Shown here: positions 36,875 to 59,617 of the stretch, piece after piece
Numbering within the stretch: the first letter of the stretch is position 1
How the letters are laid out: every line of letters begins with the position of its first letter
Assembly (NCBI GenBank): GCA_023150615.1
Contig: JAKLKO010000005.1
Location: 1 to 64,000, forward strand
Reading direction: 5' to 3'
Origin: Phycisphaerae bacterium
GTDB taxonomy: Bacteria; Planctomycetota; Phycisphaerae; UBA1845; UTPLA1
DNA length: 64,000 nucleotides
Position numbers and translations under genes: made by a program
The notes under the pieces: generated by a model
What the model was told of the DNA's origin: nothing
Databases searched by the model: none
Seen by the model: only the letters and a program-made list of their open reading frames with translations

Positions 36875-38929
36875 ATGCTATTCGCCGATTCCCAGGCCAT
36901 GGGCACCTTCAAGGGGTTTAATGAACGCGGCTTAGAATTCGCCGCCGAGATCGTCGCCCCCTACGAAGCTTCCATGCTCGACCGTCCCCAGCTCGGTCAG
37001 TTCGTGCTCATCGAGCTTGGCTCCGTCGAGGAAGCTGCACTCGGCCGGATCACGCGGTTTGTGCCGTCTGGGCTTCTGGCGACCGCCGAGGGAGAGGACT
37101 ACGTGAACACGATGCAGCGGCGGCAGCAGGCGGTTCCCGAGGATCTGAAACAGCAGCGGCTCAAGTATCGCGTGCAGCTCAAGCTGCTGGGTGCCGTCCG
37201 CATCGTCGATGGCAGGGTCGTCTACGTTCCTTCTCAGCGCCGGCTCCCGCACCTCGGGGCAAGGGTTGCGTTTCCAAGCGCCGCGGTAATCCAGGAGCTG
37301 TGCCGCCTTAGCGGCGGGCAGACCGACCTTGGCGACTACGTGCTCGGTGAGTTCGTGTTCGCTGGCGCACCCACGCCGCCTCCGGCGCCACACTTCCGGA
37401 CCATCGACCCGAAGCTGACCGTCACGTTCGACATCCACAACCTCGTTTCGCGTCGCAGCGTCGTGTTCGCACGTGCCGGTTACGGCAAGTCAAACTTGAT
37501 GAAGTACCTGATCGCGGAGCTCTATCGCGAGACTCCCAAGACTGAAAATGGCCTTCCGGTAGGCACGTTAATCTTCGACGCTGACGGCGAGTATTTCTGG
37601 CCGGACACAGTGAAGACCCCGCCGCGTCCGGGCCTATGCGACGTGCCGCATTTGAACGACAAGATCGCGGTCTTCACAAATCGCCCGCCGCCTTCGCCGT
37701 ACTACGGGAGCTGGAAGGTCGGCGAAGTCAAACTCGACATTCGCGAGTTGCCTCCCCGCGACGTGATCGGGATCGCCGTTTCGCCGGACCGGCAGGAGCA
37801 CCAGAACGTGCTCAAGCTGAAGGGCGTATCGCGTGATAACTGGACGCGGCTCGTGGATTTGGTCTACGACAAGAGGCTGCAAGCCACTGACGCCGAGATC
37901 GGACCGCTCCTTGGCTATCAGGGCCAGCAACATATTCAGCAGGCGACCGCCGAAATCGCCGCGGCCCGCAGCAACATGAATGCGGTCGTCAGCGTGCTCC
38001 ACGATCCCAACAGCCGCGTGTTGTCTGGGACCATCGAAGGGCTGCGCCGCGGCGGCATCGTCGTTATCGACATCAGCCTGCTCAGCTCTGCTGCCGGCGA
38101 GATGCTCGCGGGGCTGATTCTGCGCAAGCTGTTCTCCTTCAACCAGGAGAACTTCACCGGTGGCCTGCCCATCATCCCGACACTTGCGGTCATCGAGGAG
38201 GCGCAAAGCGTCCTGGGCGGCCGTCTGTCTGAAACCAGCCCCTTCGTCGAGTGGGTGAAGGAGGGGCGCAAGTACGAGCTCGGCGCGATGTTGATCACGC
38301 AACAGCCGGGCTCTCTCGCCGGCGAGCTGCTGAGCCAAGCGGACAACTGGTTCACGTTTCACCTGCTTTCGGAGGGCGACGCGGGAATCCTCGGCAAGTA
38401 CAACGCCCACTTCTCTGACGACGTGCTTGCCCACCTGATCGGCGAGCCCATTCCCGGCAACTGCTTCATGTGGAGCGCCCCGAAACAGCCGTTCGTACTG
38501 CCGGTTCGTATTCGCAGCTTCGAGGACCTGTACCGGGCCAACGTCAACACGAACAAACAGGCCGGGGCGATTGGCGGAACATTGGCAGGCGAGATCACAA
38601 ATATGACAGCCGGCGCGATCGACCGGCTTGCGAAGGCGCTCCTCTCGAAACTCAAGGAGCCGAATACGAAATTTCGCCAAATGGATGATGTAGCTGGCGG
38701 CGAGGGTCTGATCGCCATCAAAGGCGGGCAGCTCTACTACCTGATCAAGGACGTCAAGACGCCGGCAGACACGACGCCCGAGGACAACCTTAAGCTACCG
38801 CTCCTCACGGAATTGCTCGGCCAGGGCGTCGTTCAGGTGCTCAAGGATGCACAGGGCAGCGACTGGTTCTGCGCCCCGGAGGCAAACTGGCAAAAGGCGG
38901 GCGTTCGGCCAAATATCCGACCTTTATGA
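36875..38929 (+). CDS. HerA-like ATPase/helicase
   Basis: The 684-aa protein has an N-terminal HAS-barrel-like domain (residues 1-150), then a FtsK/HerA-type ATPase core. Walker A is ARAGYGKSNLMKYL (Lys205), followed by GTLIFDADGEYFW, Walker B LAVIEEAQSVLGG (about residues 437-445) and the sensor motif LITQQPGSL. These rings translocate on double-stranded DNA and usually feed a nuclease such as NurA, which is encoded immediately upstream. The gene ends 8 bp before the end of the convergent large helicase gene, so the two operons are packed tail to tail. There is no sign of decay. Confidence 0.85.
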   Translation: MLFADSQAMGTFKGFNERGLEFAAEIVAPYEASMLDRPQLGQFVLIELGSVEEAALGRITRFVPSGLLATAEGEDYVNTMQRRQQAVPEDLKQQRLKYRVQLKLLGAVRIVDGRVVYVPSQRRLPHLGARVAFPSAAVIQELCRLSGGQTDLGDYVLGEFVFAGAPTPPPAPHFRTIDPKLTVTFDIHNLVSRRSVVFARAGYGKSNLMKYLIAELYRETPKTENGLPVGTLIFDADGEYFWPDTVKTPPRPGLCDVPHLNDKIAVFTNRPPPSPYYGSWKVGEVKLDIRELPPRDVIGIAVSPDRQEHQNVLKLKGVSRDNWTRLVDLVYDKRLQATDAEIGPLLGYQGQQHIQQATAEIAAARSNMNAVVSVLHDPNSRVLSGTIEGLRRGGIVVIDISLLSSAAGEMLAGLILRKLFSFNQENFTGGLPIIPTLAVIEEAQSVLGGRLSETSPFVEWVKEGRKYELGAMLITQQPGSLAGELLSQADNWFTFHLLSEGDAGILGKYNAHFSDDVLAHLIGEPIPGNCFMWSAPKQPFVLPVRIRSFEDLYRANVNTNKQAGAIGGTLAGEITNMTAGAIDRLAKALLSKLKEPNTKFRQMDDVAGGEGLIAIKGGQLYYLIKDVKTPADTTPEDNLKLPLLTELLGQGVVQVLKDAQGSDWFCAPEANWQKAGVRPNIRPL

Positions 38930-38937
38930 TCGCGTAA

Positions 38938-44019
<5,082 letters not shown>

Positions 44020-44046
44020 CATCGAACCTCGCGATGACTCGTCCTG

Positions 44047-44736
44047 TCAGCCCGCGTTCGCAAGCGCGCCATTGACCGCCGTGCAGAACATGGCTGCCGC
44101 GTCCAGCAATTGCTTTGCAAATGTTCGCATCTCGTCTTTCTTGCGCTGCCTCCGTCTGCGAGATCCCCTTCCGCGAGTTTGCGTTTCGATGGCATCCATC
44201 TCGTGAACGATCTGATTGCGCGCCGCAAGCGCATCTCGAACCCCCTGGGGCACCTGGAAGCCCTCAAGCCCCAAGTAGCCCGCGGCTCGCTGGAGCTCTT
44301 CTACACTCTGCAAGCTTTCACCGGTAATGTCGTCGATGATGAAGCCAACGATTGCGGCCTGTGGCGACTCCGAAAGCAGTGCCTCGGCGAGGCGCTGTCC
44401 GCCCCGATCGTCAATGGTCTTGAGCAAGCGGCGATGAACATGGTCGCGAGCAGCCTTCAGCGCCTTAGCGTTCTTCGTGACGAGAGCATGCAGGGAGTCC
44501 CGAATGATCCTCTTGACCACAATGTCCAGCGTCGCGCCGGCCATCACAAGCATCGCCCGCAGAAGGTCCTGATCCTCGTGTGTCGGCGCGCCTCGACCGC
44601 GGGATTCCGTGAGCGTGTCGTAGAGGTCCGCCAACGAGTTCGTGGATGCGATCCCGTATTCCAGTAGTTCGTGCGCTCTCTTCAGGAGCTCGGTGCTCGG
44701 CGCGTTTGGCGGCGCCATCACTGGGGTCCTAGCCAT
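44047..44736 (-). CDS. HEPN-motif protein in the defence island
   Basis: The 229-aa helical soluble protein starts at ATG 44736 with AAGGAGA about 9 bases upstream. The C-terminal third contains ARNQIVHEMD, which fits the R(N)xxxH motif of HEPN ribonuclease domains, preceded by long helices (LLRAMLVMAGATLDIVVKRI). HEPN proteins often act as RNA-cutting effectors in abortive infection or toxin systems, but no partner nucleotidyltransferase is present. A basic patch (RGRGSRRRRQRKKDE) follows the motif. Its start overlaps the end of the chimeric gene at 44729 by 8 bp, and the helicase follows after 27 bp, so all three are one operon. The HEPN assignment rests on the motif and the helical layout. 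Confidence 0.6.
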   Translation of the reverse strand: MARTPVMAPPNAPSTELLKRAHELLEYGIASTNSLADLYDTLTESRGRGAPTHEDQDLLRAMLVMAGATLDIVVKRIIRDSLHALVTKNAKALKAARDHVHRRLLKTIDDRGGQRLAEALLSESPQAAIVGFIIDDITGESLQSVEELQRAAGYLGLEGFQVPQGVRDALAARNQIVHEMDAIETQTRGRGSRRRRQRKKDEMRTFAKQLLDAAAMFCTAVNGALANAG

Positions 44737-45136
44737 GCCGTTGGTCTCCTTGACTGATGCGGATATTGAGGTCCAACAGGCGCCGAAGAATCTGCCGCCG
44801 GGTGTCGGGGCTGATAGTGTACCGCGTCTGGCCGCGTTCGTTGGCGTGGAAGCCGTGCCTGGGGTCGAGGTCCGTCCAGCCGTAGCAGGCCAGGATCGCC
44901 CGGTCCATTGACGCATGCAACTCGTGCAGCCGGCCCTGGCCGGCCAACTCGTCCACCGTCGCCGCACGGGCGTACGAAGGGCTGACCTGAAGCAGAAAGT
45001 CCGGCCACAGGCGTGACTCCTCGTCGAGGGCCTGATCGACGAACGCCCTGGCCCGCGCGTCGGCGGTCAGGAAGAACGACCGCACGAAGTCGCGGTAGTC
45101 GGCGAGGACGGCGGAATGGAGGTCAAAAATGCCCAT
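44729..45136 (-). CDS. Chimeric small gene: helicase N-terminus joined to a methylase C-terminus
   Basis: The 135-aa frame starts [20 protein letters not shown]. Its first 71 residues are nearly identical to the N-terminus of the large helicase. After QGRLHE it changes to LHASMDRAILACYGW, then RYTISPDTRRQILRRLLDLN, a sequence typical of the extreme C-terminus of Eco57I/PglX-type DNA methylases. The shared part is the 213-bp repeat at 44924-45136. The gene is thus a recombination product that lost the middle of both parents. It may be a decaying relic, but its frame is intact and overlaps the HEPN gene start, so it could serve only as a translated leader. Confidence 0.8.
   Translation of the reverse strand: MGIFDLHSAVLADYRDFVRSFFLTADARARAFVDQALDEESRLWPDFLLQVSPSYARAATVDELAGQGRLHELHASMDRAILACYGWTDLDPRHGFHANERGQTRYTISPDTRRQILRRLLDLNIRISQGDQRHG
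44924..45136 (-). repeat. 213-bp direct repeat, copy 2 (in the chimeric gene)
   Basis: Second copy of the helicase 5' end, see 43807-44019. Recombination between the copies would delete the chimeric gene and the HEPN gene and restore one intact helicase start. Confidence 0.9.
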
Positions 45137-45299
45137 ACTCTCCGGGCCCGCGGCAAAGTTTCGATAAGTCGTTGCATGCCAAGACGTTAGAGCCAGCAGG
45201 GCGAACATCTCCGCTAACGCGATCGCGGCGCCCGCGCCCGCCCGTAGGCGTGGCGGCCAGATGCGCTAAGATGCTCTCCGTGGTTGGAGGAAGCGAACG

Positions 45300-45913
45300 A
45301 TGGACCTGCAGTACGTCGTATTCACCTACCGAGAGGTCCAGCTCGCCCTCAAGGGCGAGCGCGGAAAGATCGGCGACCCGCAGTTGGAGTTTGCTCGAAC
45401 CGGAAGTCAGTATGTGCTGAAGGTTCATGCGTTCGTCCAGGAGGCGTGGGATTCCGCACGCGATCCGCAGGATCACCTTGACTTTTACGTCCATCAGGAC
45501 CTGATTGACGACCTTGAGTCCGAGGTTCAAGCTTGGGCTGGTCCCGCTAACGCCCAACAATTCCCAGCTACTAACCCACGGTGGTCTGCGACCGGCGCCA
45601 CTCGGCTCTTCTACGTTTTCGATAGATCTGAGATTCCGACCATCCGCGCAGAAATCGTGCTCGGCGCCGGTATTCATGGGCCGCGCTCTTTGGCGAGCGA
45701 CTCGATTCGTCTCTTTGTTGATCGCGAGGTACCGCAGCGCGGTCGAGGTTTTCAAGCACGTGTGCACTTCGGGGCTGTCGGGGCGTTCGTCCTCGGCGCT
45801 CCAGTTCAAGGCGGAGCAAGCGACGAAATCGCGATTCACTTCGATCGTGCCCAGGCATCTATGGTTGCATCGGCGGTACAATACGTCATCGATGAACATA
45901 GATCGCGCAATCC

Positions 45914-45917
<4 letters not shown>
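45300..45917 (+). CDS. Unknown protein encoded against the island direction
   Basis: The 205-aa protein has GGAGG 9 bases before ATG 45300. I do not recognise the family. It is soluble and mixed alpha/beta (MDLQYVVFTYREVQLALKGE, then DFYVHQDLIDDLESEV, then IRAEIVLGAGIHGP), with no membrane segment or catalytic motif I can name. Its 3' end overlaps the 3' end of the methylase gene by 4 bp on the other strand. It is the only + strand gene between the methylase and the helicase group, so it has its own promoter in 45137-45299. It could be a regulator, immunity or accessory factor. Confidence 0.7.
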
Positions 45918-49441
<3,524 letters not shown>

Positions 49442-49443
49442 CG

Positions 49444-52344
49444 TCAAACCACCGGCTGCAGTACAAGGACGCCGAGCAAATCCGGCGGGAGCTGCGGCTT
49501 GACCGAGAGTTCACGAACACGAAGCGAAACGGCCTGACGAACGCGCTTGTGACTCTTTTCGAGCTCAGCGGCGCGGGCAGCGATCTGGTCGCGCAACGCC
49601 GGCTCGTGCCGGGGCCACTGATCCAGTGCCTCCGCGACGAGTTGCCGCTTCTCCGGCATCGGGACGTTCGCGTCGGGCTTGGCGTCGGTGAGGAGGCGCC
49701 GCGCCTCGTCCTCATTGAGCCAGGTCGCTCGACTTGCATCAGCGTCGGTGTAACCGCGGACGATCACCTCCTCAGAAAGCAGCGGAACGCTCTGGCCCGG
49801 CTGTTCGATCAGATATCGCACGCGCAACAGCAGGATGGTCGTAAGCCGGCTGACCGAGCGAGTGCGAATCACGCCGCAGCGAGACGCCTTGGCCTCGCTG
49901 CCCTTCGTCAGCGCCTCCTCGAAGAGGAAGCGCGCGAGGGCGGCCACGAAGCGATGATTACGACCGAGGTACTCGGCACCCTCGGGCGTCGGCGACGTAA
50001 AGCTGATCAACCACTGTCCGTCTTTTCTCGCCGGCAGGGCATAGCCTACTGCCGCAGGCACCGTTGCCGTGGCGCCTTCACTGATCGCGACGCGGAACAC
50101 GTCGCGCTGCCTTGTCTTCGTGATACTCAAGCCGATGCGTTGGGCGGCGCTCAGGACGAACTCGCGGACTTCGGCCGGGTCGCCCAGGACGGCGTCGGTC
50201 GCTTCCAGCTCTTGGCGGACCTCGGCCGGCTTCAGCGCCCGCTGCGCGAAACGAGTGCGGTTGATCTTCTCCCGCTCGGCGTCGCGTTCCCAGCGACGGT
50301 GAAACTTCGTAACCGGCGATTCCTCACCGCCGAAATGAAACTGCATTTGCGGCTTGTCTGCCTTGTCGCCGCGCAGGAACAAGGCGTTCAACACGGCCTC
50401 GGTGACGGACTCGCTTTCCACCGGCACGGGCACGTGTGTGCCGAGCGTCCTGTGGATTTCGCGGGCCTTGTTGAGCAGAACTTCGAGCACGACGCCATCG
50501 ACGGCGCTGTCAGGGCTGAAGTAGCGGATCGTCTTCACGACCTTGGCCGTCTGGCCGTATCGATCCACACGCCCTTCGCGCTGTTCGAGACGGTTCGGAT
50601 TCCACGGAAGGTCGTAGTGGAGCGCGGCGTTGAACGCGTGCTGAAGATTGATGCCCTCGCTCAGGCAGTCCGTTGCGACGAGGACCCGCAGCGGCGCTTG
50701 GGCGAGCTCCTCGACCTTCGTGCGTCGCTCGTCGTCGCCGATTCGACCGGTGATCGCGACAACGCGGATTCCCGCGTGCCGATCCCGAAGCGCGCGCTCC
50801 AATCCTTCGGCGACGTAATCTGCAGTTGCGATGTACCGGCACCAGATAATCGGGTGGAAGCCCTCGCGGAGAACCTGGTCCACGAGATCGGCGCAACGGA
50901 CCACTTTTGTATCAGCACTCGAGTGAAGCAATGCTGCTGCCTGGCGGCCAAGCTCGCGCAGGCGACGGCGGTCGGATTCCTCCAACGTGGCTTCGGCGGC
51001 CTCGACGGGGGGCGTCGGCTGCTCGTCGTCGGTTACGTCGTCGCTGGATTCAAAGACGAACGGCCGGAGGTCGAGTTCGTCCTCACCAGTGGGCAGCCCT
51101 TCCAGGCGAGTGCTCAGCGCCGCCACTGCGGCGGCCGGACTCGACATGACGCAACGCAGCAGCGCCAGGGCGCCCCAATAGCGCACGCGCTGCCGGCGCC
51201 TGTCGAGGGACTGCCCTGCCTGGACGATCTCCGAGCAGAAGTTGTAGGTGCGCGTGAACAGGTCCTTGTAGTCCGGCGACAGGGGGTACGTTTCGTCCAC
51301 CGGCTCGCGCGTCGGGAAGCAGTGCTCACCTTCCCAGTCTTTTTCGATGTCGCGTCGCGTACGCTGGACGAAGTGCCGCGCAAGCTGAATCCGGTGGTCT
51401 TCGGAGAGCTCCCCCATGACCCACGAGCCAAATTCTGATCGCAGGAGGCTGAGCAGAGATCGAAACGCACTTTCGATGCCGCTATGCGGCGTGGCCGTGA
51501 GCAGGATCAGGTGCCGACCTTCAAGGCCGGCAACCTCTCGCGCGAGCGCGTGGCGCTGATGTTGGCTCTCGCTGCCATCGGCGGCCGCGGACCCGTGCGC
51601 CTCGTCGATGATCACGAGTTCCGGACAATGCAGCAGGAACTGGTGCTTGTTGCGGTCGCTCTTGAGGAAGTCGATGCTGGCAACCTGCACCGGGTAGAAG
51701 TCGTAAAGCGACATATCCCGCGGCTTCCGTGGGTCGCGATCAAGCTGGTTGATCGTACCGGAGCGGATGACCACCGCGTCCAGGTTGAACTTCTCGGACA
51801 ACTCCTTTTGCCACTGCTCGCACAGATAGGGCGGACAGAGGACACAGAACCGCCGGATCTCGCCGCGATCGAGCAGCTCGCGTGCGACGAGTAACGCCTC
51901 GATGGTCTTGCCGACACCAACGTCGTCCGCGATGAGAAGCCGCACGGAGTCGTGGCGCAGCGCCATCAGAAGAGGAACGAACTGGTAAATTCGCGGCCGG
52001 ATCGAGATGCGTCCGAGGGAGCGGAACGGCGTCGCACCCTCGCGCAGCATGAGGCGCGCTGCCTGCCAGAGCAGGTGCGCGCTCGCCGCGTCGGCAAGGT
52101 CGGCCTGTGTTGGCAACGGAAATGCCGCCGAACGAACGCGCTCCTCGGGGAGCGAGTAAAGGCTCAGGTCACGGTGGACGGAAACCGTGTCATCCGTAGC
52201 GCCGGTGAGGGGTCGCAGCCTGAGGATCAAGGCGTCATCGCTAGGCAGAAGGACCCAATCGCGGTTTCGACACCGGACGATCGCGCCCGCCCTCAGCGCC
52301 GGTGGGCCGTGAGCCGCATCTTCTGCCTGACCGCCGATACTCAT
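49444..52344 (-). CDS. SNF2-family helicase (DrmD-like)
   Basis: The 966-aa SNF2 ATPase has motif I, LLIADDVGVGKTIEALL (about residue 140), motif II VIIDEAHG (near 246), motif III LLTATPHSG, and the C-terminal lobe VLVATDCLSEGINLQHA plus REGRVDRYGQT. I start at MSIGGQAED (ATG 52344) because GGAAGGAACC stands directly before it, although the frame runs 140 codons further upstream. Next to a PglX/DrmMI-like methylase this resembles drmD-drmMI of class 1 DISARM and the helicase-methylase pairs of other defence systems. It is the first gene of the - strand operon; the methylase follows with 2 bp spacing. Confidence 0.88.
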   Translation of the reverse strand: MSIGGQAEDAAHGPPALRAGAIVRCRNRDWVLLPSDDALILRLRPLTGATDDTVSVHRDLSLYSLPEERVRSAAFPLPTQADLADAASAHLLWQAARLMLREGATPFRSLGRISIRPRIYQFVPLLMALRHDSVRLLIADDVGVGKTIEALLVARELLDRGEIRRFCVLCPPYLCEQWQKELSEKFNLDAVVIRSGTINQLDRDPRKPRDMSLYDFYPVQVASIDFLKSDRNKHQFLLHCPELVIIDEAHGSAAADGSESQHQRHALAREVAGLEGRHLILLTATPHSGIESAFRSLLSLLRSEFGSWVMGELSEDHRIQLARHFVQRTRRDIEKDWEGEHCFPTREPVDETYPLSPDYKDLFTRTYNFCSEIVQAGQSLDRRRQRVRYWGALALLRCVMSSPAAAVAALSTRLEGLPTGEDELDLRPFVFESSDDVTDDEQPTPPVEAAEATLEESDRRRLRELGRQAAALLHSSADTKVVRCADLVDQVLREGFHPIIWCRYIATADYVAEGLERALRDRHAGIRVVAITGRIGDDERRTKVEELAQAPLRVLVATDCLSEGINLQHAFNAALHYDLPWNPNRLEQREGRVDRYGQTAKVVKTIRYFSPDSAVDGVVLEVLLNKAREIHRTLGTHVPVPVESESVTEAVLNALFLRGDKADKPQMQFHFGGEESPVTKFHRRWERDAEREKINRTRFAQRALKPAEVRQELEATDAVLGDPAEVREFVLSAAQRIGLSITKTRQRDVFRVAISEGATATVPAAVGYALPARKDGQWLISFTSPTPEGAEYLGRNHRFVAALARFLFEEALTKGSEAKASRCGVIRTRSVSRLTTILLLRVRYLIEQPGQSVPLLSEEVIVRGYTDADASRATWLNEDEARRLLTDAKPDANVPMPEKRQLVAEALDQWPRHEPALRDQIAARAAELEKSHKRVRQAVSLRVRELSVKPQLPPDLLGVLVLQPVV

Positions 52345-53429
52345 GGTTCCTTCCATCCAATCCGGTGCGCGTGGCCCGCCTGGGTCACTCAGCCTGCATT
52401 CTGGGTATCCACGCCGGCTCGGCCTGACGAGGGACGTCTTCGGTCTGACATCCGAGACGGCCGCCGCACTTGGCTTGATCTTAAGTCCTGTTGCGAGCGA
52501 GGGGTAGCGGCACGCCCTGCATTCCCCGCGTTTCACGGGCGAGCGCTGCTGCCTCCGCCGGCGCCTCTGGAAAACCGTGGCTGGCTTGATTTCCGTCGTC
52601 CCGGAAGGCAAAGGCGCCAATTGCTGCGGAAGGGTTCCGCTGAGGGGTGTGTTTTGCGGTCGCCAACCCGCCCTCGATTCCCTGCTGCCCGCGGCCAGGT
52701 TGTCGGGGACGAGTGGCCTCGACAGCGCGAGAGTTGCTGCCAGGGTAACGTTCGGGGAGGTCAACGATCGGTCACGAGTCTGGCGACCGGCCAGTTAGCG
52801 CGAAAGCCCGGGCTAGAGAGCGCCCGGGGTTACTCGTTTTGTCGCGAGGATTTGCAACGGTTTGCGCAATGTGTCCGTCACGCGATTCCTCCGTGAGAGT
52901 GCGCCAGGAGCTACGAGAATCTGCCGACCGGGCGTCCGGACGATCCCTTCGTCGCTGTTCCCTCTCTGTTTCTCTGGTTTACATGATGCGTCTGGTTAAC
53001 GCTTCGCGTTCCGCGCCGCGCGACGCGCAACCGTGTTGCTTCATCGGGGGCGAATCCGATCCAGCAGGCCGGAGTCACACGGATTCCAACGCGAGCATGG
53101 ATTGGACCATCGTGCCCAGGCGCCCCGGACGCCCGGGCCAGTGTCCCCCCCGCCTCGAGGATTGATATCAACAGCGGGACATGGTAAACTGACGGGCCGC
53201 GGAACGGACGGGGCGAGCACGAGCACAGGCCCGGTCCGTCCGGCCTCCTCTCCGCCGACCGCAAGGCCGGCAACATCTGCGCGGAACGAGGGCGGCTCAT
53301 GTCCCCGCCGGTCGTTTGGCACGAATACTTTCCTGGAGGGCCGCGTCGGCCCATGCAGCCCGATACCCGGCCGGGCCCGGGCCATGATCCGCATTGCGAA
53401 AAAGGGAGTCTCAACCCAGGAGTCCAGCC
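52345..53429. other. Right edge of the defence island, no gene recognised
   Basis: This region of about 1.1 kb holds no convincing gene. The promoter of the SNF2-methylase operon should lie near its left end. A 7-bp inverted repeat CCCGGGC/GCCCGGG is at 52807-52828. The 15-mer CTTGATCTTAAGTCC at 52474-52488 also occurs at 2665-2679. Open frames on both strands here are short, overlapping and without domains. Confidence 0.5.
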
Positions 53430-54662
53430 ATGCCACGACGCCTGCATTCCCCGCTCGTTCTGATGGTGCTGTTCGTCGCCCCCGCGATGGCCCTGGCCAA
53501 TTCGCCGCCGGTCGTCAGCAACGTCACCGCCGCCCAGCGCAACGACGGGTCGAAGCTGGTCGACATCCGCTACAACCTGGCCGACGCCGATGGCGACGCC
53601 TGCGCGGTCTGGTGCGTCGTCAGCGCCGACGGCGGCGCCACCTGGACCGTCCCGGCCCTCACCTTCAGCGGCCACGTCGGCGGCGGCATCGCGCCGGGCG
53701 TGAACAGGCAGATCATCTGGGATGCCGGCGCCGACATCGCGGGCGCCGTGCGTCCGAACATGAGGGTCCGCGTCTTCGCCGACGACGGCCGCGGCCCCGC
53801 GCCGATGGTCCTGGTTCCCGCCGGCACGTTCAACATGGGCGACCCGTTCTACGAGGCGAACAACGACGAACGCCCCAGGCACCTGGTTTTCCTTTCCGCT
53901 TACCGAATCGACAAATACGAGGTCACCAACGCCTTCTACACCCAGTTTCTAAATGCCGGAGGCCACGATGCCAACTGGGACGCGAATCAGAAGATCATCC
54001 AGATGGGCCAGTCGGGCAGTTACTTTTACGCTCCCATCTCCGGCTACGAGAATCATCCGGTCGTCTACGTGTCTTGGAACGACGCAACCGCTTTCTGCGA
54101 CTGGCGCAGCCAGGTCGAGGGGCTGCCGCCCGGGGCCTACCGGCTGCCCACCGAGGCGGAATGGGAGAAGGCCGCGCGGGGCGGCGCGGCCGGCCACCGC
54201 TTCCCGTGGTCCGACCAGGACACGATCCAGCACGCGCGGGCGAACTATTACAGCTCGGCGAGCTACGCCTACGACACGAGTCCGACGAGAGGGTACCACC
54301 CGTGTTGGGGCGTCGGAACAAGCCCGGTGGGCTTCTTCACCGGGGCGCTCCAGCAGAAGGCGGAATGGAATTGGCCGGGCTCGGCCACGAGTTACCAGAC
54401 GGCGAACGGGGCCAACGGGTACGGCCTGTACGACATGGCCGGAAACGTCTGGGAGTGGTGCAACGACTGGTATTCGTACAGCTACTACTCATCTTCGCCC
54501 TCGTCGAATCCGACCGGGCCGGCCAGCGGGACTGGCCGTGTCCTTCGCGGCGGCGATTGGAGCGGCCTTCCGAACAACTGCCGGTCCGCGCTGCGCCTCA
54601 ACCTCACGCCCGGCAGCCGCGTCAGCAGCATCGGTTTTCGTTGTGCGTCGGGGACTCCGTAA
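53430..54662 (+). CDS. Secreted FGE-sulfatase-fold protein, DGR variable (target) protein
   Basis: The 410-aa exported protein starts at ATG 53430 with AGGAG 8 bases upstream. Its signal peptide (LVLMVLFVAPAMALA) is followed by a beta-sandwich domain (residues 25-130) and an FGE-sulfatase/C-type-lectin-fold domain: PMVLVPAGTFNMG, RIDKYEVTNAFYTQFL, HPVVYVSWNDATAFCDW, YRLPTEAEWEKAARGG, GLYDMAGNVWEWCNDW. The end, RGGDW....NNCRSA-R ... IGFRCA, is the classic variable region of diversity-generating retroelements. An Avd gene follows 77 bp downstream, so I read this as a retroelement target used for ligand binding and not as a formylglycine-generating enzyme. Confidence 0.85.
   Translation: MPRRLHSPLVLMVLFVAPAMALANSPPVVSNVTAAQRNDGSKLVDIRYNLADADGDACAVWCVVSADGGATWTVPALTFSGHVGGGIAPGVNRQIIWDAGADIAGAVRPNMRVRVFADDGRGPAPMVLVPAGTFNMGDPFYEANNDERPRHLVFLSAYRIDKYEVTNAFYTQFLNAGGHDANWDANQKIIQMGQSGSYFYAPISGYENHPVVYVSWNDATAFCDWRSQVEGLPPGAYRLPTEAEWEKAARGGAAGHRFPWSDQDTIQHARANYYSSASYAYDTSPTRGYHPCWGVGTSPVGFFTGALQQKAEWNWPGSATSYQTANGANGYGLYDMAGNVWEWCNDWYSYSYYSSSPSSNPTGPASGTGRVLRGGDWSGLPNNCRSALRLNLTPGSRVSSIGFRCASGTP
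54545..54655 (+). other. Putative DGR variable region (VR)
   Basis: This is the last coding part of the target protein. Invariant codons (CGG TCC GCG for RSA, ATC GGT TTT CGT for IGFR) alternate with positions whose codons are AGC, GGC, CTC, GTC or AAC. All of those differ from AAC only at the first two bases, as expected from adenine-directed mutagenic copying of an AAC-rich template. No template copy is seen between here and 55146. Confidence 0.7.
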
Positions 54663-54702
54663 TGCTTTGCTCTTTTGTCCTGTTACTCTTTGTTTCCGGG
54701 GT

Positions 54703-54721
54703 CCAGGGGCGAAGCCCCTGG
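54703..54721 (+). terminator. Hairpin CCAGGGGC-GAA-GCCCCTGG between target and Avd genes
   Basis: A perfect 8-bp stem with a GAA loop lies in the 77-bp gap between the two genes. There is no T-run directly after it. DGRs often have a GC-rich hairpin just after the variable region that is needed for retrohoming; position and shape fit. An interspersed palindrome is the alternative. Confidence 0.55.
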
Positions 54722-54739
54722 TCGCGTCAAAAATGAAGA

Positions 54740-55159
54740 ATGGCCCGCGACGAGTTGTTAGTCATCGACCGGACCTACGAGCTGCTCAAGTGGTTTCTCG
54801 GGCACTTGGGCAAGTTTCCGCGCTCGCACTGTTATGGGCTGGGGCAACAGATCGAGCATCGGCTGTATGCCATTTTCCACGGTCTGTTGCGGGCCAAGTA
54901 CGCCGGCGCAGACGCCAAGCAGGCCACCCTGACCGAAGTGAACCTGGAGCTGGAATCGATGCGGATGCTGTGTCGATTGGCGCACGAACTGGGCTTTCTC
55001 CCGCACAAGTCGCAGGAACATGCCGCGCGGGAGATGATTGAGATCGGCCTCGACCGGCCTATGCAGCCATTGCCCCGGTCGAGGCCGGACGATCAGACCC
55101 GTTTGCGCCCATCGAGACGAGCGATCGCGGTGGCGAGGGTTGGCCCATGTTGTGCGTAA
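54740..55159 (+). CDS. DGR accessory protein Avd (bAvd-like), altered C-terminus
   Basis: The 139-aa frame matches the four-helix-bundle Avd family: VIDRTYELLKWFLGHLGKFP, HCYGLGQQIEHRLYAIFHGL, LTEVNLELESMRMLCRLAHE, LGFLPHKSQEHAAREMIEIG. Avd forms a pentamer that binds the DGR reverse transcriptase and template RNA. The conserved part ends at about residue 103; the following Arg/Pro-rich 36 residues do not look like Avd and overlap the start of the next gene. This suggests that the end of avd, with the template repeat and reverse transcriptase that normally follow, has been deleted or moved. Confidence 0.8.
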   Translation: MARDELLVIDRTYELLKWFLGHLGKFPRSHCYGLGQQIEHRLYAIFHGLLRAKYAGADAKQATLTEVNLELESMRMLCRLAHELGFLPHKSQEHAAREMIEIGLDRPMQPLPRSRPDDQTRLRPSRRAIAVARVGPCCA

Positions 55160-58100
55160 CGGGCAGGCGTTTCGCGGTTCCGAAGCATGGCCACAGCGCC
55201 GCACGGTGTGGTCCGGCCGTGTGCGCTGCGATCATGTTAGCGACGGTGCACGCCGCCCACGCCGACGTCCACTGGGACGATTCGCCGGACTTTACGCTGG
55301 ACCTGTCTCCCGCACGGGGAGTCGGTTGGTCGGACAGCGGAGACTTTGGCATCGATCTGCGGCTGGTCCATCGTGTCTGGGGCGATTCGAACGCCTTCGG
55401 CGTCAGTTCGCCCGGCGGCGTGGGCACGCATCGCGTGGTCGGCCTGACGGCCAGCTATGGCGGCGTGTTCGCGCAGGGCGTCGACGTCATCAACACGATC
55501 ACGGCCACGGTCGACTGGGCCGGCCGAACGCCGTCGATGGTCGTGTTTCAGTTGAACGGCGCGATGACAACCGTCCCGACGTCCTCCAGCACGGCCCAAA
55601 CGACGTATAACATGGCCAGCGCTCTTGCATACAGCAGCGGGGGGACGCGGAACGATCTGCTGGCTTACGCCGTCGCGGCGGATGGCTCCGCGTCGCCGCC
55701 GGTGTGGTTGAATCTGTATGGTTTGGCGCTGCCGCAGTGGGCGACCTCGGAACTGACCAAGCCCGGCAACCACCCGCCAGGCCAGCCGCGGGTCGGCTGG
55801 CGGATCGAGCCGCTTACCGGCAAGCTGACGTTTTTCGGCGAGGTCGAGCTTCTGAAGGACCCGAACGACGGGGATGGGAAGGTCAGCATCCCGGAGAGCA
55901 TCCCCGAGGTTGGGGGCGAGTATGGCCTGGACCTGTCGCCCTTCACGTTCGGCTGGGAGCTGTCGGCGCAGCCGCGCTTTGGCGACGGGGCGGGGCTGAC
56001 CGGGTCGTTCGGCCTGAGCGGCTCCTGGGGGGCCGAGGTGAAGGCCGGGAGCCGCCGGCGGGGCGAGGTCTCGGCGACGCTCAGCGGCGCGGGCGAGTTT
56101 TACCCGCAGTTCAGACTGACCGACGTGTCGGCGGAACTGGCCGGGAGCTTCACGTTTCTGTCTCAGCGCTGGCCGCTGCTGTGCGGCCCGCCGACGTTCT
56201 GCTGCCACACGGGGTACTGCCCCTACTTTCAACTGAGCATCAAGCCCGAGATCGCCGGAACGGTCGGAATGGAGGAGGGTGAGCCGGCGCTGATCGCGGG
56301 ATTGAAGTTCAGGAACGCGGCGCTGGACCTGGCGGTGACGGTCGCCGGGACCGTCGGGGCCGGCTCGGAAGGCAGCATCTACTACATCGCGGGGACCATC
56401 GGTGGAAGACCGAGCGTGACGCTCCAGTATCCGGGCGATGCGTCGAGCATGTGCCTGAACGAATACGTCCAGCAGGCGCAATTCGATCTGCTGGCGCGAT
56501 TCGTGGTCGAATGCGCCTGGTGGCGGATCGAGCGGAACATGACGTTCAACATCTTCCGCTGTCCCGATGGCGGGCAATACTTGGTTGGAACACCGATCGG
56601 CGAACCCCAATTCGACCTGGTGGACCGCGGGTATTTGCACGCGGCGGAAGGATATTGCGTGTTTCCGCCCGCGGGCCAACGGTCGGTCGGGGCGCTGCCG
56701 GATCCGATTCTCAATGTCGGGACCGGGCCGACGCCCGCCCTGGCGACGGCGAGCGACCGCGGCTTATTGCTCTTTGTGTCGGACAATCCGAGTCAGCCCA
56801 CTGGTCGGCACCAGGAGATCTACTTCGCCCGCTGGACCGGCGCGAGCTGGACCGCGAACGCCCTGCTGACCGACAACGATCGGCCCGATTTTGAGCCGGC
56901 GGCCGCGATTGACTCGGGCGGGACGGAGGTCGCCGTGTGGGTGCAGGCCCCGACGCCGACCGGCAGCGAGACCGGACCGCGCGACATCCTGCCCGGCTGC
57001 GAGATCGTGTATTCGAAGTACGTCGGCGGGAACTGGACCGCGCCGCAGGCGATCACGAACAACGGCTACGCCGACTTGTTGCCGTGGTTCGAGAAGCTGC
57101 CCGGCGGCGGCCTGCGCGTGTGTTGGGTGTCCAGCGCCACGAATGCGGTTCCGGTGTGGCATGACGAGCGTATTGCGCCGCTGCTGGATGTGATGGCGGC
57201 CGACTGGGACGGCAGCGCCTTCGGCACGTCGTATGCCGTGACGACGGGGTTGCAGACCGCCTCGCCGCCCGGAGTCGCTCGCTCGACGACGACGGAGTTC
57301 ATGACGTACCTGTTGGATACGGACAACGATTCGGGCACGGCTGAGGACCGCGAGGTCGTGGTGCGCTCGCGGGATCTCGGCCAGGCCTGGGGGCCTGACG
57401 TGCAGCTTACCACGGACGCGCTGTCGGATACGTCTGCCCAGATTGCCGTGGACACGAGCGGCAATGCGCTGGTCGTCTGGGTCAAGGGGATGGTGCCGGT
57501 GACGCTGCCGGACCTGACCGAGACGAGCGTAGATCAACTCTGGTTCTCGACATGGGCCGGCGGGGGCTGGACCGCGCCGGCGCTGGCATTTGAGAACGAC
57601 GGTATTACCGAGGCGAAACTGATTCGGAACGACGCCGGGAGGCTGCTGATCTTCTGGGTCGCGGCATCCCCGGAGTTCGCCGACCTGTATTACAGCGTAT
57701 TCGACTCCAATCTGACGCAGTGGGGCGTGCCGCAGCAGGTGACGCATGACCAGGGGGCCGAGACCATGACGGCCCTGAGCGAGAGCGGCGGCAACATCCT
57801 GGCGGCGTTCGTCAAGCGGCGAATCGACCTGGTAAGCGATCCGAACGGACTGCCGCAGATCGGGCTGTCGGACATTTACCTCCTCCAACATGTGCCCGCG
57901 CAAGACCTGTTTGTCGCCGCCGGGGACATCTCGTTTACGCCCGACCCGGTTGTTCCAGGGCAAAGCGCGAATGTCTGTGCGAATGTGCACTTGTCAGGCG
58001 ACTTCACTACGGCCGACGTGTCCGTGAGTTTCTATGACGGCGATCCGGCCGCTTCGGGCGTCCTGATCGATTCAACCACGATTCCATTGATCTTGCCCGG

Positions 58101-59058
58101 TCAGGCGCAACCGGCTTGCGTGAGTTGGACCGTTCCGAACGACGGGCAGGCGCATCAGGTTTTCGTGGTTGTTGACCCCGCGAATACCATTCCCGAGACG
58201 GACGACACGCTCAACAACAACGCCAGTCGCGGCCTGTTTGCGCCGGACTTGAGAAATAGTGCGCCGTCGGTCACGGCCTATCCGAGTCCGGATTCGGTGC
58301 TGGTGGGCTGCACGATCCGCAATGATGGGAATGCGATTGCAGGGGAAAGCGCTCTGGAAGTTCGTCAAGATTCGCCGGCGGGACCGGTGGTTTACTCGAC
58401 CCAACTTCCGCCGGTTCCCGCGGGCGGCTCGTCCAGCGTACAGTTCGCCTGGGACGTGACCAGCTTGCCGATCGGGACCTATACACTGGTCTTTCTAACG
58501 GATGCCAGCAACGCCGTGGTCGAATCGAACGAAACGAACAACCTGGCATCGCTCCTGGTCCGCGTGATGGGCGATCTCCAGGCCGAACCGTGGAGCGCGA
58601 CGTACGACGGGGCAAACGCTCAAGTCGTCGTGCGGAACGTCGGGGCCAAGCCGATGGCGGTAACCGTTGTTCGCGCGACCCAGTACGGCCAGACGCTTGC
58701 TGAGGCGCCGCTTGGGGCATTGGCCGCAGGCGACTCGGCGACCGTGACCATCCCAATCGCCGGGCCGATCCCTGCGGGCCTGATCTTGCTGACGGCCAAC
58801 CCCGATTCCGACGGCTCCGATGAGGTCTCGCTGTTGAACAATGCCGCGTATGCAGCCGTGGCCGCGAACCCGGACATGAACTGCGACGGCGTGGTCAACA
58901 CCGACGACATCGCGCATTTCGTGCAGGCACTGCTCGACCCGGCCGGCTATGCGGCCGATCATCCTGCGTGCAACGGGCTATTGGCAGATATGAACGCCGA
59001 CGGTCAAGCGAATGGCGGCGATATTCAATTGTTTATCAACCGCTTGTATGCGCCGTGA
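55147..59058 (+). CDS. Large secreted protein with CARDB domains and dockerin-like end
   Basis: The 1303-aa exported protein has an N-terminal signal (AAIMLATVHAAHA) followed by unrecognised beta-rich domains (residues 40-540). A propeller-like region of about 70-residue repeats follows (ATASDRGLLLFVSDN, IYFARWTGASWTANALLTD, VDTSGNALVVWVKG), then two CARDB-type domains (FTPDPVVPGQSANVCANV and PSPDSVLVGCTIRNDGNAI, each ending ETDDTLNNN or ESNETNN). A dockerin-like pair of calcium loops closes it (DMNCDGVVNTDDIAHF, DMNADGQANGGDIQLF). It is probably a surface or exported binding protein. The ATG at 55147 overlaps the altered avd tail by 13 bp. Confidence 0.78.
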   Translation: MLCVTGRRFAVPKHGHSAARCGPAVCAAIMLATVHAAHADVHWDDSPDFTLDLSPARGVGWSDSGDFGIDLRLVHRVWGDSNAFGVSSPGGVGTHRVVGLTASYGGVFAQGVDVINTITATVDWAGRTPSMVVFQLNGAMTTVPTSSSTAQTTYNMASALAYSSGGTRNDLLAYAVAADGSASPPVWLNLYGLALPQWATSELTKPGNHPPGQPRVGWRIEPLTGKLTFFGEVELLKDPNDGDGKVSIPESIPEVGGEYGLDLSPFTFGWELSAQPRFGDGAGLTGSFGLSGSWGAEVKAGSRRRGEVSATLSGAGEFYPQFRLTDVSAELAGSFTFLSQRWPLLCGPPTFCCHTGYCPYFQLSIKPEIAGTVGMEEGEPALIAGLKFRNAALDLAVTVAGTVGAGSEGSIYYIAGTIGGRPSVTLQYPGDASSMCLNEYVQQAQFDLLARFVVECAWWRIERNMTFNIFRCPDGGQYLVGTPIGEPQFDLVDRGYLHAAEGYCVFPPAGQRSVGALPDPILNVGTGPTPALATASDRGLLLFVSDNPSQPTGRHQEIYFARWTGASWTANALLTDNDRPDFEPAAAIDSGGTEVAVWVQAPTPTGSETGPRDILPGCEIVYSKYVGGNWTAPQAITNNGYADLLPWFEKLPGGGLRVCWVSSATNAVPVWHDERIAPLLDVMAADWDGSAFGTSYAVTTGLQTASPPGVARSTTTEFMTYLLDTDNDSGTAEDREVVVRSRDLGQAWGPDVQLTTDALSDTSAQIAVDTSGNALVVWVKGMVPVTLPDLTETSVDQLWFSTWAGGGWTAPALAFENDGITEAKLIRNDAGRLLIFWVAASPEFADLYYSVFDSNLTQWGVPQQVTHDQGAETMTALSESGGNILAAFVKRRIDLVSDPNGLPQIGLSDIYLLQHVPAQDLFVAAGDISFTPDPVVPGQSANVCANVHLSGDFTTADVSVSFYDGDPAASGVLIDSTTIPLILPGQAQPACVSWTVPNDGQAHQVFVVVDPANTIPETDDTLNNNASRGLFAPDLRNSAPSVTAYPSPDSVLVGCTIRNDGNAIAGESALEVRQDSPAGPVVYSTQLPPVPAGGSSSVQFAWDVTSLPIGTYTLVFLTDASNAVVESNETNNLASLLVRVMGDLQAEPWSATYDGANAQVVVRNVGAKPMAVTVVRATQYGQTLAEAPLGALAAGDSATVTIPIAGPIPAGLILLTANPDSDGSDEVSLLNNAAYAAVAANPDMNCDGVVNTDDIAHFVQALLDPAGYAADHPACNGLLADMNADGQANGGDIQLFINRLYAP

Positions 59059-59174
59059 ACACCCGATTGTGGCGTGTTCTGTGCTGCCTCCTATTTCACC
59101 GCCAACGGGCACCGAGAAGCTGTTCGGCCGAATATCCCCCCATTCTGTTAACCCGCCGCGTATGTAACAGGTAG

Positions 59175-59348
59175 CGGGCCGCGCTGGCCCGAACCCGCCG
59201 CGGCGACGACGTCGATTCGTTTGTCCGCTGTCTGCTCGCGGGCACGGGACAGTGCCGCTGCGCCGACACCAACGTGGCCAATGGTCTGACGATTGACGAC
59301 GTGCCCGTCTTCGTCAATCAACTGCTGGCGGGGATCCCGTGCCCTTAG
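59175..59348 (+). pseudogene. Fragment: dockerin-like tail of a lost gene
   Basis: The frame between a stop at 59172 and the TAG at 59346 encodes GDDVDSFVRCLLAG, then CADTNVANGLTIDDVPVFVN and QLLAGIPCP. That is the end of a dockerin-tailed secreted protein like those at 10897 and 55147. There is no start codon and no upstream body, so it is a remnant. It is too short and startless to be called as a gene. Confidence 0.7.
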
Positions 59349-59617
59349 CGGGCGGAACGAGAACGATTCTCGTCGATGGCAAGAAGGTCGTCCAAGCCCG
59401 GATCGAGCGCACGCAGGTGACGATGTACTTGGCGGAAGAGCCGGCCGACGTGGGGCTGGACAATGCGACCCCCGTGATGGAGGATCAGAAGGAGCGCGAC
59501 AACCAGTTCACCGGCCGGATCGGCAAGGTGACGATTGACATCGCGCCCGGTAAGCTCGGCGCCGCCGACGAGGAGGAACTCCGGCTGGCAGAACACCGCC
59601 TCAGGATGAGCGAGTGA
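59339..59617 (+). pseudogene. Fragment: arylsulfatase C-terminal tail
   Basis: The frame encodes GGTRTILVDGKKVVQARIER, then TQVTMYLAEEPADVGLDN and FTGRIGKVTIDI, which match the C-terminal subdomain of type I arylsulfatases. The catalytic N-terminal 400 residues are absent. With the dockerin fragment just upstream it shows that several secreted-protein genes were deleted here, leaving only tails. Translation from GTG 59339 is formally possible. Confidence 0.65.

Follow-up and report, generated by a model that had tools for sequence, protein, structure and literature searches.

A probable diversity-generating retroelement remnant in a Phycisphaerae genome, with a target gene and an avd fragment but neither reverse transcriptase nor template repeat

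Targets of diversity-generating retroelements (DGRs) that lack the machinery of diversification are already known. Isolates of Treponema denticola carry left-over DGR targets whose variable regions (VRs) have diverged from related templates chiefly at adenines; these genomes have neither a reverse transcriptase (RT) nor a template repeat (TR) (PMC4891356). Anabaena all3226 and other remote cyanobacterial variable proteins show remnant TR-VR homology with no RT nearby (PMC7517822). The target site of the Bordetella phage BPP-1 DGR includes a GC-rich hairpin of 7 to 10 bp after the VR, in which pairing matters and the sequence is free (PMC3240598). The locus described here belongs to a planctomycete of the class Phycisphaerae. 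Like the Treponema denticola left-over targets, it has an adenine-diverged VR in a genome without RT or TR, but unlike them it keeps an Avd fragment, a hairpin, and a spacer motif beside the target. Anabaena all3226 is likewise a comparable variable protein without a nearby RT; however, the cyanobacterial case concerns proximity to RT genes, whereas here the whole genome is without one. Targets without RT or TR are a known kind, to which the present locus adds a well-preserved anatomy. The recurrent and directional loss of RT and TR within the Phycisphaerae appears to be a new addition.

The window analyzed comprises bases 1 to 64,000 of a 217-kb contig, which is part of a draft genome of 4.10 Mb in 70 contigs with an estimated completeness of 99.6%. 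The target gene (53430..54662, on the forward strand, as are the VR, the spacer motif, the hairpin, avd, and the gene after avd) is an intact open reading frame (ORF) of 410 amino acids with an FGE-sulfatase (C-type-lectin-like) domain (PF03781; E = 1.2e-61). Its product matches the Treponema denticola variable protein 2y3c (E = 1.4e-23) and is predicted to be secreted, based on a signal peptide judged by eye. An earlier note on this DNA had described, at 53430-55159, such a target gene followed by a hairpin and an avd gene, and it was right in both coordinates and description. Intact DGRs of other Phycisphaerae (G003, G021, G027, G045, and G083) share the target fold, the VR register, the spacer, and the Avd family with the window but, unlike its locus, have a complete Avd, an RT, and a template.

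The VR (54536..54658) lies at the 3' end of this C-type-lectin-fold gene and closes with a conserved IMH-like end at approximately 54633-54658. The earlier note had taken RGG-W...GFR to be the canonical DGR variable motif, a view that we do not share, as RGG-W...R...GFR is a general C-terminal motif of the FGE family and is present in the enzyme of PDB 2q17. Because this motif also occurs in genuine FGE enzymes and alone proves nothing, the test for adenine mutagenesis used the templates of relatives, the window VR's own template being gone. In comparison with the closest of these, from G003, changes in the window VR affect 19 of 29 adenines and 13 of the 83 remaining bases (p = 1e-6), and an adenine bias was also obtained with four further templates (p = 1.1e-4 to 9.5e-4). 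In control comparisons of template against template among the relatives, adenine positions had no excess of differences, and the unlinked FGE paralogues encoded in the window's genome differed from the G003 template at 46 to 47 of the 83 non-adenine bases. At the AAC codons of the G003 template, the first two bases are changed in the window VR in 13 of 20 cases and the third base in none of 10; the third base is changed in 8 of 27 non-AAC codons. The earlier note had read a mutagenized-AAC signature from the VR codons; the pattern against the G003 template is the mark of adenine mutagenesis and not of ordinary coding drift. What identifies a DGR here is adenine-specific divergence from the templates of relatives, taken together with the linked hairpin and avd.

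By sequence, the target shares its fold family with formylglycine-generating enzyme (FGE; PDB 2q17 and 6muj). FGE carries a catalytic cysteine pair in its C-terminal motif, within the segment LCHDSYC. When aligned to 2q17 and 6muj, no cysteine of the target falls on either cysteine of that segment, and the candidate function of an active FGE enzyme was rejected on the absence of the pair. A tree built from target domains places the window's target near other RT-less targets (G086, G089, and G095) and away from the RT-linked ones.

The target stop codon is separated from the avd start at 54740 by 77 nt. Between the stop codon and the hairpin lies a pyrimidine motif of 28 nt (54665..54692), with the sequence CTTTGNNCTTTNNYCCTNTTACYCTTTG, which has one match in the window where 0.00 are expected. 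Across 22 sites, the 32 nt after the target stop have a pyrimidine fraction of 0.80, compared with 0.50 downstream of the window's other ORFs. In its fuzzy form, the motif occurs solely after target stop codons (in the window and the fetched order-level loci), and it is also found in other families of the class. It occupies the same place in L065, L070, L071, L075, L076, L144-L151, L153, L155-L158, L166-L170, L172-L175, and L179. The template 3' flanks examined are free of it (pyrimidine fraction of 0.38 to 0.56), and a literature search found no mention of it. This VR-side motif appears to be an addition to the known DGR features, with a function that is only putative.

The hairpin follows 40 nt after the target stop and downstream of the VR (54703..54721) and consists of a GC stem of 8 bp with a GAA loop. 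A genome-wide REP element was considered for this hairpin and rejected, because its 24-nt context is a single-copy sequence in this genome. The stem sequence varies among relatives with the pairing retained, which is expected because the BPP-1 work found a requirement for a GC-rich stem whose sequence is free. A VR followed by a GC-rich hairpin is thus common to BPP-1 and the Phycisphaerae sites, but BPP-1-type sites have 4-nt GRNA loops (PMC3240598) whereas those of the Phycisphaerae are mostly 3-nt GNA, the window's GAA being one base shorter than GRNA. The pyrimidine motif between stop codon and hairpin is a further feature of the Phycisphaerae sites, unlike BPP-1. The remnant thus retains a complete target site, consisting of the VR with its IMH-like end, the pyrimidine motif, and the hairpin. 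At RT-less sites, spacer and hairpin are no more decayed than at RT-linked sites, which is odd for long-dead elements. For example, G086 and G095 belong to two other families, and their spacers align to that of G000 without gaps at 84 to 86% identity, compared with 66 to 67% for the target genes. Either the losses of RT and TR are recent, or the target site is still constrained.

The avd frame (54740-55159) matches bAvd (PF22296) at 50.5 bits, above the cut-off of 40, and the NCBIfam model DivGenRetAVD (NF033474) at 73.2 bits, just below its cut-off of 80. Its homologous part covers codons 1 to 103 (54740..55048) and is 56 to 68% identical to Avd of the closest relatives, in which the protein has 117 to 122 amino acids. 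At codon 103 the homology stops where relatives continue to a conserved end (..RMVGGWLKQQR..), so the normal end is indeed lost, as the earlier note had stated. The rest of the frame (55049..55159) is a tail of 36 unrelated codons without an RT or TR remnant. An inverted repeat with 13-bp arms straddles the breakpoint (55045..55087; DNA fold z = -3.1); a repeated mobile element was rejected here, the palindrome being unique in the genome. The break falls approximately 14 nt upstream of the point at which RT starts in relatives. The next gene (55147..59058) encodes a large secreted protein with CARDB and dockerin domains, assigned with Pfam. Homologues of it adjoin DGR targets in relatives, the genomes including G095, G108, G045, and G086 and the loci including L147, L155, L072, and L157; this argues against a chimeric contig. 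Upstream of the target, the genes at 36875-52764 include matches to models of defence systems (HerA, DruE-like, DrmMI-like, and a DpdE-like helicase at 594 bits) and probably belong to a defence island.

Neither an RT nor a TR is present in the window, as the earlier note had reported, and this absence extends to the whole genome. RVT_1 had no match in the 4.1 Mb of the 99.6% complete genome, the same search being positive in control genomes that have RVT_1, and a profile built from seven relatives' DGR reverse transcriptases had none either. BLAST of the VR and its flank against the genome returned only the VR itself. The same was true of a template-compatible pattern in which any VR base may be A, with at most 3 mismatches, a condition that any template of this VR must satisfy. 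Downstream of avd (55049-59400), nothing resembling an RT or TR remnant rose above the shuffled or random level. Of the parts of a complete DGR, the genome is without an RT and without a template repeat differing solely at adenines, and has an avd that ends at codon 103. The earlier note's description of a DGR remnant, with target and Avd but no RT or template, therefore holds genome-wide. Its alternative of a dead element or a target diversified in trans is narrowed in favor of the former. It had also named the lack of a VR near-copy in the genome as evidence against its reading; no such copy exists, and this half of its test counts against ongoing diversification only and not against remnant status.

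Relatives of the window's avd locus are found in Phycisphaerae and other planctomycete MAGs, and the genomes compared were taken one per species. Within the same order, at loci in G002, G003, G021, G027, G045, G050, G083, and G095, TR/VR pairs mismatch almost only at template adenines, and the gene order of intact relatives is target-VR-avd-RT-TR. The survey covered the order with 114 genomes and the class with 397; avd length and any adjacent DGR RT were tabulated by hand, and two weak matches (G069 and G003:C3) were omitted. Among avd genes extending to the C-terminal end, 28 of 33 had an adjacent RT, compared with 0 of 20 truncated ones; p = 2.6e-10 is indicative only, as the loci are mutually related and some contigs end nearby. 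Partial avd genes are nearly all N-terminal, meaning that the target-side end survives. Some relatives carry such a scar. In a second element of G045, avd is cut to approximately 17 codons and joined directly to the template 3' end; in G042, it stops at about codon 99 and is followed by filler with an inverted repeat and then the 3' part of a template. In G086, it stops at codon 39; a PDDEXK_3 (GxxExxY-type) gene follows, together with a full template, and there is no RT. Because RT adjoins most full-length but no truncated avd genes, and because of the template ends in G045 and G042, loss of RT by deletion with retention of the target is recurrent among the Phycisphaerae relatives.

We consider it probable (roughly 0.77) that the window locus is a DGR remnant that lost RT and TR by a deletion from avd while keeping its target. 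The original element would have been arranged as target-VR-hairpin-avd-RT-TR. A deletion that began around avd codon 103, approximately 14 nt before the relatives' RT start, would have removed the end of avd, the whole RT, and the template and joined the remainder to the next gene. The target gene would have survived intact, its last adenine-mutagenized VR now frozen, while the site that would serve mutagenic homing (IMH-like end, pyrimidine motif, and hairpin) is retained. A deletion from avd through TR is the best account because of the association between truncated avd and missing RT, the scars in relatives, and a break just upstream of the RT start. No scrap of TR or RT is left at the locus, and the far end of the deletion therefore cannot be seen. 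The layout of the locus, the adenine signature of its VR, the lack of RT and TR in the genome, and the scars in relatives are observed; we infer that a single deletion occurred, that the truncated Avd is non-functional, and that the target may have been retained for a frozen binding specificity.

Several other histories could produce a target without RT. The target and its 3' flank into avd may have been copied as an accessory cassette from a complete DGR and never have had an RT of their own, the main DGR being lost later. The second target of G045, which has an avd fragment only, gives this some substance: an intact DGR lies on its contig, and its VR matches the template of that DGR, the mismatches in the last 66 nt all being at A. 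The grouping of the window's target with other RT-less targets points the same way. However, the G045 avd fragment leads into the remnant of a template, meaning that this copy too once had RT and TR, and the window keeps 103 of approximately 120 avd codons with a break just before the RT start, which a deletion fits better; we regard a copied cassette as unlikely. A somewhat bolder proposal is that target and site are kept working on purpose as an RT-less, part-time DGR, whose VR could be rewritten whenever another lineage supplies RT and template; the 28-nt pyrimidine motif would be a hitherto unreported recognition element that marks VR and not TR. This we hold to be a long shot. Diversification in trans, with RT and template encoded at another place in this genome, would suit the complete target site and intact ORF, and remote targets do exist in cyanobacterial DGRs (PMC7517822). 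It is nevertheless very unlikely, because the genome has no RT by RVT_1 or DGR-RT profile, no VR near-copy, and no possible template.

Assembly error deserves similar scrutiny, as VR/TR repeats are able to break assemblies and the draft is in 70 contigs: RT and TR could have fallen into a gap, or the contig could be chimeric at 55048. Misassembly through VR/TR collapse was rejected, since it would have taken avd as well, yet avd is present. Moreover, the contig continues for more than 160 kb, nothing DGR-like lies on other contigs, and the independent assembly of G108 has the same succession of target, avd fragment, and type of next gene. Although a slight chance persists that an RT sits on a missing contig, an artefact is highly improbable. 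That an ordinary FGE-family gene simply stands next to an unrelated four-helix protein, with no DGR history, could draw on the family-wide RGG-W...GFR motif but is scarcely credible given the adenine-specific divergence, the DGR-type Avd, and a motif and hairpin of the sort found at DGR targets.

If deletion from within avd is the correct reading, the locus illustrates how DGRs die: deletions that start inside avd remove RT and template, and the diversified binding protein stays. Repetition of this in one bacterial class would make frozen products of hypermutation a common end state there. RT-based surveys must miss such loci, and the combination of VR, pyrimidine motif, hairpin, and avd fragment could serve as a finder for these fossils. 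The pyrimidine motif is also a testable candidate for the feature by which the machinery of these organisms distinguishes VR from TR.

Other loci of the relatives have structures of their own. L157 (6460-6825), L149 (2668-3039), and L147 (7177-7542) are RT-less, with a PDDEXK_3 (GxxExxY-type) gene after the avd fragment; these genes are flanked by CGCAGATT-type repeats, and their points of entry into avd differ slightly, near codons 30-39. At L144 (6815-7240; G095 C91), the place immediately before the avd fragment, where the VR is expected, is occupied by a template-like, AAC-rich repeat, as if TR and VR had recombined. A different route of decay is seen at L160 (4817-5086; G051), where a DGR RT with its middle deleted persists as two pieces after the target. 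L075 (3110-5874; G056) is a second, differently built orphan, with a protein kinase-FGE fusion target, a full-length avd, and a perfect hairpin in a genome in which no RT was found. In another clade of DGR targets (L065, L071, L069, L076, L158, and L160), a PEP-CTERM sorting signal directly follows the VR, and the hypervariable domain would, by prediction, be sorted to the surface.
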